From: Acidobacteriota bacterium
GTDB lineage: Bacteria; Acidobacteriota; UBA6911; RPQK01; JAJDTT01
DNA length: 40,629 nt
Direction of reading: 5' to 3'
Assembly (NCBI GenBank): GCA_028874215.1
Contig: JAPPLF010000032.1
Span: 1 to 40,629, forward strand
In this document: piece by piece, positions 1,419 to 7,571 of the stretch
Position numbering within the stretch: the stretch's first letter is position 1
How the letters are laid out: each line of letters opens with the position of its first letter
Position numbers and translations under genes: made by a program
The notes under the pieces: model-generated
What the model was told of the DNA's origin: nothing
Databases searched by the model: none
What the model saw: the letters and a program-made list of their open reading frames with translations, nothing else

Positions 1419-2819
1419 TCACGCCTCCGTGAAATAGAGGACCCTGGATCCGGAGGGCAGTTCCCGGCGCCGGTGGACCCGGAAGCACTTTCCCAGGCAC
1501 TCCTCGAAGTAGTCCATCCGGTAGTCGGTGTACTGGTCCTCCTTGTTCCGCAGGAGCATCCGGACCATGGGGTCGTCCCGGCGCACGAACTCGATGACCA
1601 GTGAGCCTCCCAGCCCCGAGAGCCATTCGACGAACTCCGCCAGTGGAATGTTGGCGGCGATGACCATGTGATGGATCAGCGCCAGGGAGAGGACCAGTTC
1701 CGGGGATCCTCGCTCCGTGAGGGAGGTCCTTTCCCGGCAACGCCATCCCAGTGACGGCGAGGGATCGGCCAGGTTGACCACGAGCGGAAGTATGTTGCCG
1801 GGACCCTCCCGGCGCAGGTCCCGGTAGAGGAGGTCCACCGAGGCCGAGTCCCGCTCCATGGACAGCACGTACTCAGACCCGGCGGCGGCCAGTCGCGAGT
1901 AGTCGCCCGTGTTGGCTCCCAGGTCCCAGGTCGTCTTCCATCGCTTTCGACCCACCACCCAGCGGACGAATTCCCGTTTGGCTTCCCGGTCCGGCCCGGA
2001 ATAGGTGTTGTCCCCGGCGTATCCGGTCCACTGGGAGGCGGGGGGTGTCCATCTCAGTCGTGAAACCAGCCGGGTCAGGCGGCTGACGTTGGAGAGGATC
2101 GCCTTCCGGTTGAATCCGGCGTCCTTGAGAAGCTGGCTGGCGCTCTCCTTGCGCGCGCCGTATTTCTCCTGGAAGCGGCTCTGGAGCCAGACGTGAGGGA
2201 GGACTCCGGAGCGGAACAGATCCCGGGTGGAGAGTACGTCCCGGCACTCTCGCGGCGAGATTCCGTTGAGACTCCCCCTGAGCCAGTGCTGGAACGGCAG
2301 GTTTCGATAGGCCTGCAACATCAGCGGGTACAGGTAGAGGCTGCAGAATTGCCGGTAACCCGTCCAGGCTCCGCCCGGCGGCAAGGGTTCAAAGGAGGGA
2401 ATGTCGATGAAGACCGGCCGGCTCCCGTTCCATTGAACGTTGTAGGGGGTGGCGTCCTTGAGGATCATCCCTTCGGCCAGAGACTTGGAGATCAGCCGGA
2501 GCTGCAAAAGGGCGGCATCCTGCAGCATCCGGAACGACCACTCGTAGAGATAGGAGACGTAGGGGACGGTCTCGTGGCGCAGAATCCCTGCCCAGTCTCC
2601 GGGCGGCACGTCCGTGGACGCCCATCCGTCGGCGTCCACGCGGCGGGTCCTGACGATCAGGCCCTCATCCACCAGCCGGGGAAAGAACCGGGTCTTCTCC
2701 AACCTGTCCCAGGCTTCGATGGCTTGCCGGCTCAGGGCGCGATAGACGGCCCCGTCCCGGTAGAAGACGCGGCCATGGCGATCGCGGAACGATCCAGGCT
2801 CGCTTCGGAATTCAGACAT
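1419..2819 (-). CDS. NoeA-like SAM-dependent methyltransferase with kinase-like N-half
   Basis: A 466-residue protein starting at MSEF. The upstream in-frame Met at 2933 is not preferred because it would run into the neighbouring small gene. The C-terminal half is a class I SAM methyltransferase: motif I DLGANTGD (299-306), an acidic residue after strand 2 in MERD (322-324), and ALIHH (380-384) in the motif IV region. The N-terminal half contains ILKDATPYNVQW (119-130) and FIDI (137-140), which resemble the catalytic loop and metal-binding segment of aminoglycoside-phosphotransferase-like kinases. This combination is typical of NoeA-like proteins, named after a rhizobial host-specificity nodulation gene. 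The substrate is unknown; a role in modifying surface glycans is an inference. It lies 43 bp downstream of the small membrane protein gene and is probably cotranscribed with it. No strong ribosome binding site precedes the chosen ATG. Confidence 0.72.
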   Translation of the reverse strand: MSEFRSEPGSFRDRHGRVFYRDGAVYRALSRQAIEAWDRLEKTRFFPRLVDEGLIVRTRRVDADGWASTDVPPGDWAGILRHETVPYVSYLYEWSFRMLQDAALLQLRLISKSLAEGMILKDATPYNVQWNGSRPVFIDIPSFEPLPPGGAWTGYRQFCSLYLYPLMLQAYRNLPFQHWLRGSLNGISPRECRDVLSTRDLFRSGVLPHVWLQSRFQEKYGARKESASQLLKDAGFNRKAILSNVSRLTRLVSRLRWTPPASQWTGYAGDNTYSGPDREAKREFVRWVVGRKRWKTTWDLGANTGDYSRLAAAGSEYVLSMERDSASVDLLYRDLRREGPGNILPLVVNLADPSPSLGWRCRERTSLTERGSPELVLSLALIHHMVIAANIPLAEFVEWLSGLGGSLVIEFVRRDDPMVRMLLRNKEDQYTDYRMDYFEECLGKCFRVHRRRELPSGSRVLYFTEA

Positions 2820-2862
2820 GGGAAAGGAACGATTTTCGTCGTACCGGGATGCTCGAGATCCG

Positions 2863-3060
2863 TTATTCCGCCTTCCGGCCGGTCCGCTCCAGGGATGCGT
2901 CGGCCTTGTCTGGCGCGCCCGACCGGACTCCAAGGGCAGACTTGATCCGGTGCCAGACGACTTTTCCCAAGACGGCCACTCCCGCGATGCCCCCCAGCAG
3001 CAATTGAAGAAAGAGACTCCCCGATCCGGGATCCAGGTAGGCGAGAGGTGTCCAGATCAT
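2863..3060 (-). CDS. Small YLDPGSGS membrane protein
   Basis: A 65-residue protein starting MIWTPLAYLDPGSGS. The start at 3060 has an AGGGCAGGA-type ribosome binding site just upstream; the longer in-frame extension to 3201 has no protein-like features and is rejected. After the conserved YLDPGSGS motif comes one hydrophobic segment (about residues 15-36), then a basic stretch WHRIKS and a charged tail. Short proteins with YLDPGSGS followed by a single transmembrane helix are familiar in Gram-negative genomes and, as far as I recall, often sit beside NoeA-like methyltransferases, as here. The function is unknown. It is probably an inner-membrane partner of the methyltransferase. Confidence 0.7.
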   Translation of the reverse strand: MIWTPLAYLDPGSGSLFLQLLLGGIAGVAVLGKVVWHRIKSALGVRSGAPDKADASLERTGRKAE

Positions 3061-3238: not shown

Positions 3239-4321
3239 ATGAAGACGCCGGAGAGCATCCTGGAGGGCGTTTACCAGGGACAACGACTGGAACCGTCCGA
3301 TGCTCTCGTTCTATTGAAGTCCGGTGAACTCCAGCAGTTGGGTCAGGCCGCCGACTGGATGCGCCGCAGACTGCATCCGGACGGAGTCGTCTCCTTCCTC
3401 GTGGACCGGAACGTCAACTACACCAACGTGTGCGTCGCCCGCTGCACCTTCTGCAACTTCTACCGCCGCCCCGGCCATGACGAGGGCTACGTCCTGTCCA
3501 ACGAGACCATCTTCAAGAAAATCGAGGAGACCCTGGCCCTCGGCGGGACCGGAATCCTGATGCAGGGGGGCATGCACCCCGATCTCAAGATCGACTATTA
3601 CGAAGAACTGCTCAGCTCGATACGGGAACGCTATCCCGCCATCCACCTTCACTGCTTTTCTCCGCCGGAGATCGTCGTCCTGGCCCGGCTCAGCCGGCTC
3701 TCCCTCCGGGAGTCGATTCGAAGGCTGAAGGCGGCGGGACTCCAATCCATTCCCGGCGGCGGCGCCGAGATCCTGACCGAGCGGATGCGCCGGGAAATCA
3801 GTCCCGGCAAGTGCACCGCCCGGCAGTGGTTGGAGGTGATGCGGGTCGGCCACGAAGAGGGGCTGCCCACCACCGCCACCATGATGATCGGAGGCGGCGA
3901 ATCCCTCCGGGAGCGGGTCGAGCACCTGGAGGGCATCCGCAGCCTCCAGGATGAGACGGGAGGGTTCGTGGCCTTCATCCCGTGGAACGTCCAGTTGGAG
4001 GGGACCCCCATGCAGGAGTCCATCCAGCGGGAGGTTGCGGCGGTGGAATACCTCACCCTCTTGGCGGTCGCCCGGATCTACCTGGACAACATCGTCAACC
4101 TCCAGGTCTCCTGGTTGACCCAGGGTCTTCAGGTGGGCCAGATCGCGCTCCATTTCGGTGCCAATGACGTGGGCAGCATCATGATCGAGGAGAACGTGAT
4201 CAGCACCGCCGGCGCCCATTACACGGCCCGGCGCTCCGATCTGGTTCAATTGATCCTCGACGCCGGCTTCGTTCCCGCTCAAAGAAACTCCGTCTACAGC
4301 ACCTTCAAGAAAATCGCCTGA
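3239..4321 (+). CDS. mqnC: Cyclic dehypoxanthine futalosine synthase MqnC
   Basis: A radical SAM enzyme of 360 residues that cyclises dehypoxanthine futalosine in the futalosine route to menaquinone. The 4Fe-4S cluster cysteines are C65, C69 and C72 in VCVARCTFCNF, a CxxxCxxC motif. Family-typical stretches include GGTGILMQGGMHPDLKI, HCFSPPEI, SIPGGGAEIL and ATMMIGGGE, and the length is normal for MqnC. The ATG at 3239 lies 9 bp after a possible -10 hexamer TAGAAT (3224-3229) and has no Shine-Dalgarno sequence, so the transcript may be nearly leaderless. It is divergent from the small membrane protein gene; the 178 bp between them (3061-3238) hold no other gene I can see. Other mqn genes are not in the window. 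The identification is firm. Confidence 0.95.
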   Translation: MKTPESILEGVYQGQRLEPSDALVLLKSGELQQLGQAADWMRRRLHPDGVVSFLVDRNVNYTNVCVARCTFCNFYRRPGHDEGYVLSNETIFKKIEETLALGGTGILMQGGMHPDLKIDYYEELLSSIRERYPAIHLHCFSPPEIVVLARLSRLSLRESIRRLKAAGLQSIPGGGAEILTERMRREISPGKCTARQWLEVMRVGHEEGLPTTATMMIGGGESLRERVEHLEGIRSLQDETGGFVAFIPWNVQLEGTPMQESIQREVAAVEYLTLLAVARIYLDNIVNLQVSWLTQGLQVGQIALHFGANDVGSIMIEENVISTAGAHYTARRSDLVQLILDAGFVPAQRNSVYSTFKKIA

Positions 4322-4347
4322 TTCCGGACATCCGCCCGGATACTCAG

Positions 4348-4387
4348 TTCCCCCGGTTTGACTCCGGTGGGGAATCCTGTATAAAAT
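4348..4387 (+). promoter_or_regulatory. argR promoter with hairpin across the -35 box
   Basis: TTGACT (4358-4363) and TATAAA (4380-4385), separated by 16 bp, form a good sigma-70-type promoter 18 bp before the argR start. The -35 box lies in the loop of an imperfect inverted repeat, TTCCCCCGG (4348-4356) with CCGGTGGGGAA (4364-4374), which could end mqnC transcription or act as an operator. The AT-rich stretch overlapping and following the -10 box could hold an ARG box, but symmetry is weak and no clear match to the consensus is seen. Confidence 0.6.
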
Positions 4388-4403
4388 TGCATTCTTCCTG
4401 GAA

Positions 4404-4847
4404 ATGAATAAGAAACTGAGACAGGAGGCCATCGTCCGAATCGTGGAGACCGAGACCATTTCCAGTCAGAAGTCCTTGCGAAAGGCGTTAATGGAAAAGG
4501 GGTTGAGTGTCACCCAGGCGACGCTCTCCAGGGACCTCAAGGAACTGGGCGTGATCAAGACCGTGGACGATGGGGGCGGGTATAAATATGCGTTCCGGGA
4601 GAATCGACGCGCTCCGCTCTTTCGGAGTTGCGAGGTCAGCGGGAACCTCCTCGTGGTGCATACGGATGCCGGGATGGCTCCGGCGGTCGCCTACCGGATC
4701 GACGAGATGGGGCTGGCGGGGATCCTGGGCACCGTGGCGGGAGAGGACACTCTCCTGGCCGTCGTTGCCGACGGCCATGATGCCCGTCTGGTGAAGCGCC
4801 AACTGGGAGCTCGCGGTGGAGGTCCCGGCCAGCGGCGGGAGCGGTGA
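4404..4847 (+). CDS. argR: Arginine repressor ArgR
   Basis: A 147-residue ArgR/AhrC regulator, which senses arginine and controls arginine genes. The N-terminal winged helix (about 1-65) carries the typical SVTQATLSRDLKELGVIK recognition segment with S42-R43. The C-terminal oligomerisation and arginine-binding domain (about 75-145) ends in GTVAGEDTLLAV, the family's GTxAGxDT-like motif. The length is normal. It opens a codirectional arg cluster, so it probably regulates its own operon from the promoter just upstream. Its 3' end lies 13 bp before the chosen argG start. The last ten residues (GGGPGQRRER) are a loose, basic tail not usual for the family. Confidence 0.95.
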   Translation: MNKKLRQEAIVRIVETETISSQKSLRKALMEKGLSVTQATLSRDLKELGVIKTVDDGGGYKYAFRENRRAPLFRSCEVSGNLLVVHTDAGMAPAVAYRIDEMGLAGILGTVAGEDTLLAVVADGHDARLVKRQLGARGGGPGQRRER

Positions 4848-4860
4848 CGCCGCCGGCGGT

Positions 4861-6132
<1,272 letters not shown>

Positions 6133-6155
6133 GGATCGGAGAAAGACAGAAGACC

Positions 6156-7571
6156 ATGACCCGATCTCCCTGGGCAGGCCGATTCACGGAAGATCCCGAC
6201 CAGGCGGTCCAGGACTACACCCGGTCTCTTCATGTGGACCGGCGATTGGCCGGCTACGACATCCAGGGCAGCCGGGCCCATGTCCGGATGCTGTGCCGGC
6301 AGGGGATCCTCAGCAGCCGGGACCGGGACCGGATCCTGCAGGGACTGGACCAGGTCGAGGAGGAGATCCGGTCCGGACAGTTTCCGTACCGGGACGAACT
6401 GGAAGACATCCACATGAACATCGAGGTCCGCCTGTGTGAACTGGTGGGCGATGAGGGACGCCGGCTTCACACGGGCCGAAGCCGGAACGACCAGGTCGCC
6501 GTGGATCTGAAGCTGTTCTGCCTGGACGCGGCGCTGGGATGGCAGGAGATGATCCGGCGGGTCCAGGAGGGTCTATTGGACCGGGCCCGAAGCCTGGAGC
6601 GCGAGCTCTTTCCCGGCTGGACCCATCTGCAGGCCGCTCAACCGGTCTCCTGGGCGCATTATCTGCTGGCCTACTGCGACATGTTCGACCGGGACCACCG
6701 GAGGCTGGCCGCCTACCGGCGCCTCCACAGCGTCAGTCCCCTGGGCGCCGGCGCTCTGGCCGGCAGCACCTTGCCTCTGGATCCGGGCTGGACCGCACGG
6801 GAGCTGGGTTTCGCCTCCAGCTTCGAAAACAGCTACGACGTGGTGGGGGACCGGGACTTCCTGCTGGAGCTGCTTCAGATCGCCACCCAGATCATGCTCC
6901 ACGCCAGCCGCATGGCCGAGGACCTGATCTATTTCTCCAGCACGCCGGTGGGGTGGGTGGAGCTTCCCGAGTCCCTTTGCACCGGCAGCAGCATGATGCC
7001 CCAGAAGAAGAATCCGGATCTGCTGGAGCTGTGCCGGGGCAAGACGGCCACGGTGCTGGGGCATGCCAGCGCCATGGCCATCCTTCTCAAGGGTCTGCCC
7101 AGTTCCTACAACCGCGACCTGCAACAGGACAAGGAACACCTCTTTCCCGCCGTGGACACGGTGGGGGAGACGCTGGGGATCCTGACCCTGGTGGCGAGCC
7201 GGATGCGAGTGGTTTCGAGTCGAATCGGACCGGCGCTGGAACGGGGATTCCTCACCGCCACGGATCTGGCGGAACACCTGGTGTCCCTGGGGGTTCCGTT
7301 CCGGACCGCTCACGAACAGGTCGGGCGCCTGGTGGCCTATTGCGTGAAGCATAACCGGACGTTGCGGCAGCTCTCCTTGCGGGAAATCCGCAAGCTTGCG
7401 CCCCGGTGCGGTTCCGACGTTCAGGGCGTCTTGAAACCGGAGGGCGCCCTCGATCACAAATTCCACTCGGGGAGCACCGGGCTGGCCTCCATCCGGCAGC
7501 AGATCGACCGCTGGGAGGACCGGCTCCGGACCCACGGGAACGGAAGTACTTCAAGGGAGGACCAGCCATGA
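6156..7571 (+). CDS. argH: Argininosuccinate lyase ArgH
   Basis: A 471-residue fumarase/aspartase-superfamily lyase that splits argininosuccinate into arginine and fumarate. The superfamily signature GSSMMPQKKNPD spans about residues 277-288, with the catalytic-loop serine at 279. HTGRSRNDQ near residue 106 is the other ASL hallmark. The start ATG follows a GGAGAAAG sequence, and the N-terminus (SPWAGRFTEDPD) matches the usual WxGRF opening of the family. Its stop overlaps the argF start in an ATGA, so translation of argF is probably coupled. The last residues (HGNGSTSREDQP) are a non-conserved tail that encodes the argF ribosome binding site. Confidence 0.95.
   Translation: MTRSPWAGRFTEDPDQAVQDYTRSLHVDRRLAGYDIQGSRAHVRMLCRQGILSSRDRDRILQGLDQVEEEIRSGQFPYRDELEDIHMNIEVRLCELVGDEGRRLHTGRSRNDQVAVDLKLFCLDAALGWQEMIRRVQEGLLDRARSLERELFPGWTHLQAAQPVSWAHYLLAYCDMFDRDHRRLAAYRRLHSVSPLGAGALAGSTLPLDPGWTARELGFASSFENSYDVVGDRDFLLELLQIATQIMLHASRMAEDLIYFSSTPVGWVELPESLCTGSSMMPQKKNPDLLELCRGKTATVLGHASAMAILLKGLPSSYNRDLQQDKEHLFPAVDTVGETLGILTLVASRMRVVSSRIGPALERGFLTATDLAEHLVSLGVPFRTAHEQVGRLVAYCVKHNRTLRQLSLREIRKLAPRCGSDVQGVLKPEGALDHKFHSGSTGLASIRQQIDRWEDRLRTHGNGSTSREDQP

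Follow-up and report, generated by a model that had tools for sequence, protein, structure and literature searches.

NoeA and NoeB were reportedly described by Ardourel in 1995 as host-range determinants of nodulation, and their chemistry is still hypothetical. They have been hypothesised to modify Nod factors (PMC9048898). A 2022 study of the Legionella kinome reported a kinase-methyltransferase family, represented by Lani_1194, of which NoeA was named as a homologue (PMC9758233). In that study, Lani_1193 occurred in 65% of 816 neighbourhoods and the AlkP-fold protein Lani_1195 in 38%, and the family was proposed to decorate secreted signals or to act on the bacterial envelope. No other paper was found by a literature search for Lani_1194. 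WbdD of E. coli O9a also carries a kinase and a SAM methyltransferase in one chain and is a membrane-associated glycan enzyme; as the terminator of O-antigen chains, it phosphorylates the terminal mannose and methylates that phosphate, an activity with which the enzyme described below can be compared by analogy. The domain order of WbdD is methyltransferase, kinase, coiled coil (PMC3482155).

The pair of genes studied here lies on an Acidobacteriota contig of 40,629 nucleotides, the whole of which is called the window. Its features are the following.

2863..3060, minus strand: small membrane protein with a YLDPGSGS motif (65 aa), a single membrane-like helix and basic residues in the tail
1419..2819, minus strand: NoeA-like kinase-methyltransferase (466 aa plus stop, from an ATG)
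2034..2795, minus strand: predicted kinase-fold half of the enzyme, residues 9-262
2439..2459, minus strand: KDATPYN, catalytic-loop-like motif, residues 121-127 (D122, N127)
2400..2411, minus strand: FIDI, DFG-like metal-binding motif, residues 137-140 (D139)
1422..2036, minus strand: predicted class I SAM methyltransferase half, about residues 262-466, with a matching fold and a DLGANTG motif at 299-305

The sequence-only reading had regarded such a membrane-tethered pair as new. For the enzyme this did not hold, as the kinase-methyltransferase family, its homology with NoeA and its conserved neighbours, including the AlkP-fold one, are already in print (PMC9758233). The section on Lani_1194 in that account describes no YLDPGSGS protein. 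What we add is the near-identical distribution of the two proteins among genomes, the presence of the small gene inside nodL-noeA-noeB, a fusion of the small module, the link between the AlkP and small genes, and copies on viral contigs. Text searches found no paper containing strings of the YLDPGSGS or YIDPGTGS type, and those for noeA together with 'small protein' returned unrelated papers only.

The small gene comes first and is separated from the enzyme gene by 43 bp (2862-2820), which agrees with the earlier description of a 65-residue membrane protein next to the enzyme; its product starts with MIWTPLAYLDPGSGS. The ATG at 2819 was taken as the start of the enzyme; a 504-aa frame starting from a TTG (2933..1419) would run into the small gene. 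Within the genus (three sequences each), dN/dS amounted to 0.17-0.23 for the enzyme and to 0.18-0.39 for the small protein, low values indicating that both frames are conserved as proteins. Neither protein matched a Pfam-A family, and the sole NCBIfam match was with the small protein, at 15.3 bits for a cut-off of 40. An annotated S. meliloti NoeA (H14) aligned with 98% of the enzyme at 34.8% identity (E 4e-72), in agreement with its initial designation as NoeA-like, and a single-protein search of genome contigs yielded two close relatives, 88-89% identical to it, which appear to be the copies of G001 and G002 and were counted once. Just 1.4 kb of the contig extends beyond the 3' end of the enzyme gene, and a 368-aa neighbouring ORF found there (214-1320) had no match in a Pfam search. 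By eye, the frame 1302-1604 resembles the start of the gene that adjoins the enzyme in a relative (L001:7789-9557) and then diverges from it; the sequence at the 3' end of the enzyme gene therefore looks rearranged or truncated. The other flank (3239-7571) contains, according to Pfam, a radical SAM gene of the CofH/MqnC type and one for an arginine repressor, followed by ORFs that are presumably argG and argH. Nothing among the genes of this flank pointed to glycan synthesis.

We aligned the enzyme with its homologues, making 88 sequences from 83 Acidobacteriota genomes (that of the window included) and 5 plasmid records. R27, E93, W94, D122, N127 and D139 were invariant in 88/88. In the SAM motif, G301 and G305 were also present in 88/88 and D299 in 87/88. 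A D-x4-N sequence with a later Asp is spaced as in kinases, where a catalytic loop is followed by the metal-binding Asp, and the invariance of D122, N127 and D139 confirmed that KDATPYN and FIDI had been correctly picked out as kinase motifs. These three residues are the equivalents of the kinase residues D166, N171 and D184, which are conserved in the N-terminal kinase-like domain of the Lani_1194 family (PMC9758233). This family also has an Arg in place of the catalytic Lys, and R27 would correspond to the R38 of that paper. The likeness extends to the C-terminal class I SAM methyltransferase, to the full-length homology with NoeA and to an AlkP-fold neighbour at homologous loci; the window copy differs in having no linked AlkP gene. 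One homologue (L054/L072, G217) was reported by the search tool to contain an in-frame TAA.

The kinase half was modelled alone with AlphaFold from a shallow alignment of 9 rows (pTM 0.79, pLDDT 73.3). Among the matches listed, the best was with the PKR kinase (8qel_B; Z 11.2, 202 residues, rmsd 3.6 Å); that with PknG (4y0x) had an E of 1.4e-4. All of the 50 best fold matches listed by Z were kinase or kinase-homology domains, the closest including PknG, DYRK2 and PKR, which are eukaryotic-type protein kinases. APH-type kinases, named for comparison at the outset, were absent from the 50 best matches in either of two such listings, and a sequence-profile search of PDB sequences gave 0 matches for this half. 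The model of the whole enzyme (7 alignment rows, pTM 0.77, mean pLDDT 71.6) gave a listing filled by matches to the methyltransferase domain, residues 262-466. This half matched NodS (3ofk_B; Z 17.0 over 174 residues) and MePCE (6dcc_A; Z 16.4 over 188 residues), with many ties. As NodS is an N-methyltransferase, its tie with MePCE means that the fold match does not show phosphate methylation. In a profile search of solved structures, WbdD (4azw) scored best (E 0.0048), over 37 positions that covered the SAM motif only, while the phosphate-methylating MePCE had an E of 0.15. Computation thus showed, at the level of predicted models, a kinase fold in the N-terminal half, as initially suspected, and a class I methyltransferase fold in the C-terminal half, with conserved catalytic residues. 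The order of the two domains, kinase (9-262) and then methyltransferase (about 262-466), is the reverse of that in WbdD. One hydropathy window of 1.89 was found in the enzyme, at residue 375, and windows of at least 1.6 were found in 27/88 homologues. They were rejected as membrane helices, the residue-375 window lying within the methyltransferase fold.

The small protein was sought in the DNA flanking the enzyme at all 83 Acidobacteriota loci and in 5 of 65 plasmid records, using a profile at E < 0.01 (the best match of this profile with reversed sequences had an E of 1.3). It was present at 77/88 loci (72/83 in Acidobacteriota and 5/5 on plasmids), always on the same strand as the enzyme, and at least one locus had it in the fetched flank in 43/46 genera. 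The gene was mostly directly upstream of the enzyme; it was directly downstream in L025 and L084 and about 1.65 kb upstream in L083 and L085. The loci without it were 8 of the 14 in one genus (g48), L042, L082 and L126. A second look for divergent copies at these 11 loci revealed none that was convincing; a whole-genome profile search located the gene at another site in 10 of these 11 genomes. Irrespective of position, the enzyme was found in 83 and the small protein in 83 of 396 Acidobacteriota genomes, and both together in 82, so that the recurrence of the pairing, put forward at the outset, was amply confirmed. This near-perfect co-occurrence corresponded to a hypergeometric log10 p of -82.6, or -42.9 by genus. 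It was established in one phylum, with a small-protein profile built from enzyme-adjacent copies and with up to 4 (enzyme) and 14 (small protein) first-look candidates scored for each genome, so that weak copies may have escaped. Of the two odd genomes, G373 gave an enzyme split into two pieces (best E 8.8e-18) and no small protein, and G368 had the small module only (E 2.5e-8). The presence of both proteins varied together within genera, e.g. g1, g4, g6, g8, g14, g19 and g48, which indicates that the association is not only due to shared ancestry.

A gene for an AlkP-fold membrane enzyme (Pfam Sulfatase; NoeB type) was found at 40/88 loci, 34 times downstream and 6 times upstream, when tested with a profile at E < 1e-20 within 2.5 kb of the enzyme and on the same strand. 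All 40 of these loci (40/40) also had the small gene, and the 11 loci devoid of the small gene had no AlkP gene (Fisher p 0.0008, a value that ignores relatedness, 8 of the 11 being from one genus). The link went beyond the enzyme loci, since small genes located apart from the enzyme adjoined an AlkP gene in 4/10 genomes (L147, L153, L154, L155), as did a second small-gene copy in G381 (L160). The linkage of the AlkP gene with the pair is among the features that computation establishes. In 41 such AlkP sequences, four metal-ligand positions were invariant, the fifth being H in 35 and E in 6; the nucleophile was Thr in 40/41 and Ser in 1, and never Cys. A Thr or Ser rather than a Cys nucleophile goes, in the AlkP superfamily, with phosphotransfer rather than sulfatase action, and these neighbours therefore point to phosphotransfer. 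Within the first 320 residues, 40/41 of these frames had at least three membrane-like windows. With its Thr nucleophile and conserved metal-ligand positions, this frequent third gene of the cassette resembles NoeB and LTA-synthase-like enzymes, though it is not beside the window genes: no AlkP gene was found near the pair, where the downstream flank is 1.4 kb, nor beside the pair of the relative L027, which has full flanks. Two AlkP relatives were found elsewhere in the genome of the window (contigs C55 and C100). The frequencies of 77/88 and 40/88 are of the same order as the 65% and 38% reported for the neighbours of Lani_1194, and Lani_1193 may for this reason be the YLDPGSGS small protein.

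The motif of the small proteins is close to Y[LIVT]DP[GA][TS]GS, and a membrane-like helix follows it in 76/77 of them (hydropathy window of 1.98 at residue 17 in the window protein). The stretch after the helix had a mean net charge of +1.6 and was positive in 54/77. Before the motif, 69/77 frames contained a hydrophobic, signal-like segment, a count that ignored start codons and in which the motif finder chose a wrong site in at least one case. The window protein lacks this leader. An AxA-like site directly preceded the motif in 63/77, counting the PLA of the window protein despite its missing leader. The flank of a membrane helix that carries positive charges faces the cytoplasm (the positive-inside rule), and since the tail is mostly positive and signal-like segments usually precede the motif, we infer that the motif is on the outer face and the basic tail inside.

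Copies of the enzyme were also found on six distinct viral contigs (L127, L128, L130, L131, L144, L145; L129 and L132 are repeats of L128 and L127 and were not counted). Three of them (L127, L144, L145) encoded the small protein, and the same three had an AlkP gene; the small protein was not found on L128, L130 and L131. In L127 (4687-8526), the small protein, the enzyme and the AlkP gene follow in a row after a gene matching phage tail fibres. In L144 (4784-7218) and L145 (2567-5530), they are preceded by a Zot-like ATPase gene, which matches Zot-like and M13 protein I families, and the AlkP gene of L144 is cut by the contig end. The small proteins of these two contigs are variants, with MYLDPGSWS and MYLDSSAWG, and were found by searching all frames. 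In L128 and L131 (L131:5052-8755), the enzyme lies between nucleotide-sugar epimerase genes (PHROGs, tested for L131), which we take to be those of GDP-fucose synthase and GDP-mannose dehydratase, and L131 also contains a portal gene. Genes carried in this way by phages often change the host surface. Neither the window enzyme nor the phage variant matched annotated phage records, and further searches of viral contigs returned only the contig of the query or nothing.

The interpretation that we favour, with slightly less than even confidence, is that the pair forms a membrane-associated, WbdD-like unit for the modification of glycans, in which the substrate, the methyl-phosphate product, the topology and the contact between the two proteins are inferred. 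The large protein would be a cytoplasmic bifunctional enzyme, whose N-terminal kinase domain would phosphorylate a hydroxyl group of a sugar or polyol linked to the membrane, presumably in a lipid-linked or surface glycan, and whose C-terminal methyltransferase would then methylate that phosphate, as WbdD does. The small protein of the window would cross the inner membrane once and hold the enzyme at the membrane, and the NoeB-type AlkP enzyme, whose gene accompanies nearly half of the loci, would work at the outer face. In favour of this interpretation are the invariant residues, the two folds, the profile match with WbdD, the co-occurrence, the AlkP linkage, the fusion in G368 and the viral copies. 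Membrane tethering and an action on glycans or lipids had been suggested at the outset and are retained here as possible features. Several observations argue against this interpretation: the mixed neighbours, the lack of the small protein on 3/6 viral contigs and in G373, the domain order reversed with respect to WbdD, the lack of a linked AlkP gene in the window and in L027, and the tie between NodS and MePCE. The neighbours were scanned with Pfam at 50 loci, one for each genus or plasmid (111/146 candidate ORFs, 35 being left out by hand); among the 111 proteins, no family had more than 3 members in the best 25 of 150 families listed. Such a mixture fixes no sugar pathway, and we rejected the notion of a single polysaccharide pathway to which the cassette would always belong.

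The small gene was also present in the operon of noeA itself. In S. meliloti pSymA (CP140953.1; L023:5748-5963), a 71-aa 'hypothetical protein' that contains AYLDPGTGSMLVQ is encoded between nodL and noeA and overlaps the start of noeA; the order is identical in Rhizobium sp. T1470, and in strain 1021 the small protein is at NC_003037.1:419091-419303. The S. meliloti small protein was matched in 61 plasmid records (57 Sinorhizobium, 3 Rhizobium, 1 Ensifer). These numbers per genus are the same as those of the rhizobial matches of the window enzyme, as compared by number rather than accession by accession. The 4,040-base nodL-small-noeA-noeB stretch was covered to at least 80% in one place in 61 of the 64 plasmid records with any match. 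The Acidobacteriota small protein gave zero matches when searched against the plasmids by tblastn; compared with the 61 records of the S. meliloti query, this indicates that tblastn cannot link such short and divergent proteins between phyla. Located in this operon, and accompanying the enzyme nearly everywhere, the small partner gene provides a direct genetic handle on the function of NoeA.

A broader proposal is possible, and we make it tentatively, with the balance leaning against it. According to this proposal, the YLDPGTGS protein would be a general transmembrane adaptor that connects the cytoplasmic kinase-methyltransferase to an extracytoplasmic AlkP-type phosphotransferase, in a widespread, phage-mobilised system for the methyl-phosphate capping or decoration of surface glycans. 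The nodL-noeA-noeB operon would be one instance of it, with an unnamed fourth gene, and would have the rhizobial surface or Nod factors as the target of this chemistry. If true, the methyl-phosphate interpretation would extend WbdD-type O-antigen chemistry to a broad set of bacteria, and phages may use this chemistry to change the surface of their hosts.

The operon that contains noeA determines host range, and this would also fit an enzyme that modifies small signals after the manner of a decoration before or on secretion, with Nod factors as the signals of rhizobia and others elsewhere, or an enzyme that is an injected effector, the small protein being a mere co-transcribed accessory. Such functions are among those already suggested for NoeA and Lani_1194, PMC9758233 proposing the decoration of secreted signals besides an action on the envelope, and PMC9048898 a modification of Nod factors. 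The three-gene set is, however, also found in Acidobacteriota, on a planctomycete plasmid and on a Novosphingobium plasmid, and the envelope is suggested as the site of action by the membrane partners and by the copies on phages. We know of no Nod factors in Acidobacteriota, planctomycetes or Novosphingobium. We consider this explanation unlikely.

It is still less likely that the kinase half works in signalling, phosphorylating proteins or small molecules, and that the small membrane protein is its sensor or substrate. The closest folds listed are indeed those of protein kinases (PknG, DYRK2, PKR), a membrane partner would suit a sensor, and there are S and T residues within the conserved motif. 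Yet in the inferred topology this motif is on the outer face, beyond the reach of a cytoplasmic kinase, and the fused methyltransferase and the AlkP neighbour would be left unexplained.

The motif-helix-basic tail architecture resembles that of sorting tails such as PEP-CTERM or LPXTG. It is nevertheless highly improbable that the small protein is nothing but such a signal, which a dedicated membrane enzyme would process and whose processed end would be the target of the AlkP enzyme or the kinase-methyltransferase. Conserved as the motif is, no larger protein body precedes it in the alignments, and the module of genome G368 is N-terminal rather than C-terminal in an enzyme. In this genome, where a search for the kinase-methyltransferase gave no match, a YLDPGTGT module forms the N-terminus of a 419-aa protein (L161:4439-5695, minus strand), the rest of which matched Glyphos_transf (CDP-glycerol glycerophosphotransferase) with 23.2 bits for a cut-off of 22.1. 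This fusion is weak evidence that the small module serves as an anchor for glycopolymer enzymes, in line with the favoured membrane-associated glycan-modification unit. A match with the AlkP profile in L161 (E 2.1e-10) turned out by Pfam to be a 60KD_IMP protein and was not used.

Some small genes were found away from the enzyme. Second copies in G263 and G075 (L158, L159) had a match with the AlkP profile nearby, on the opposite strand, and no kinase-methyltransferase match in the same stretches. In G281 (L157:4773-9434), an extra small gene adjoins dTDP-rhamnose-like genes, which we assume to belong to the dTDP-rhamnose pathway.
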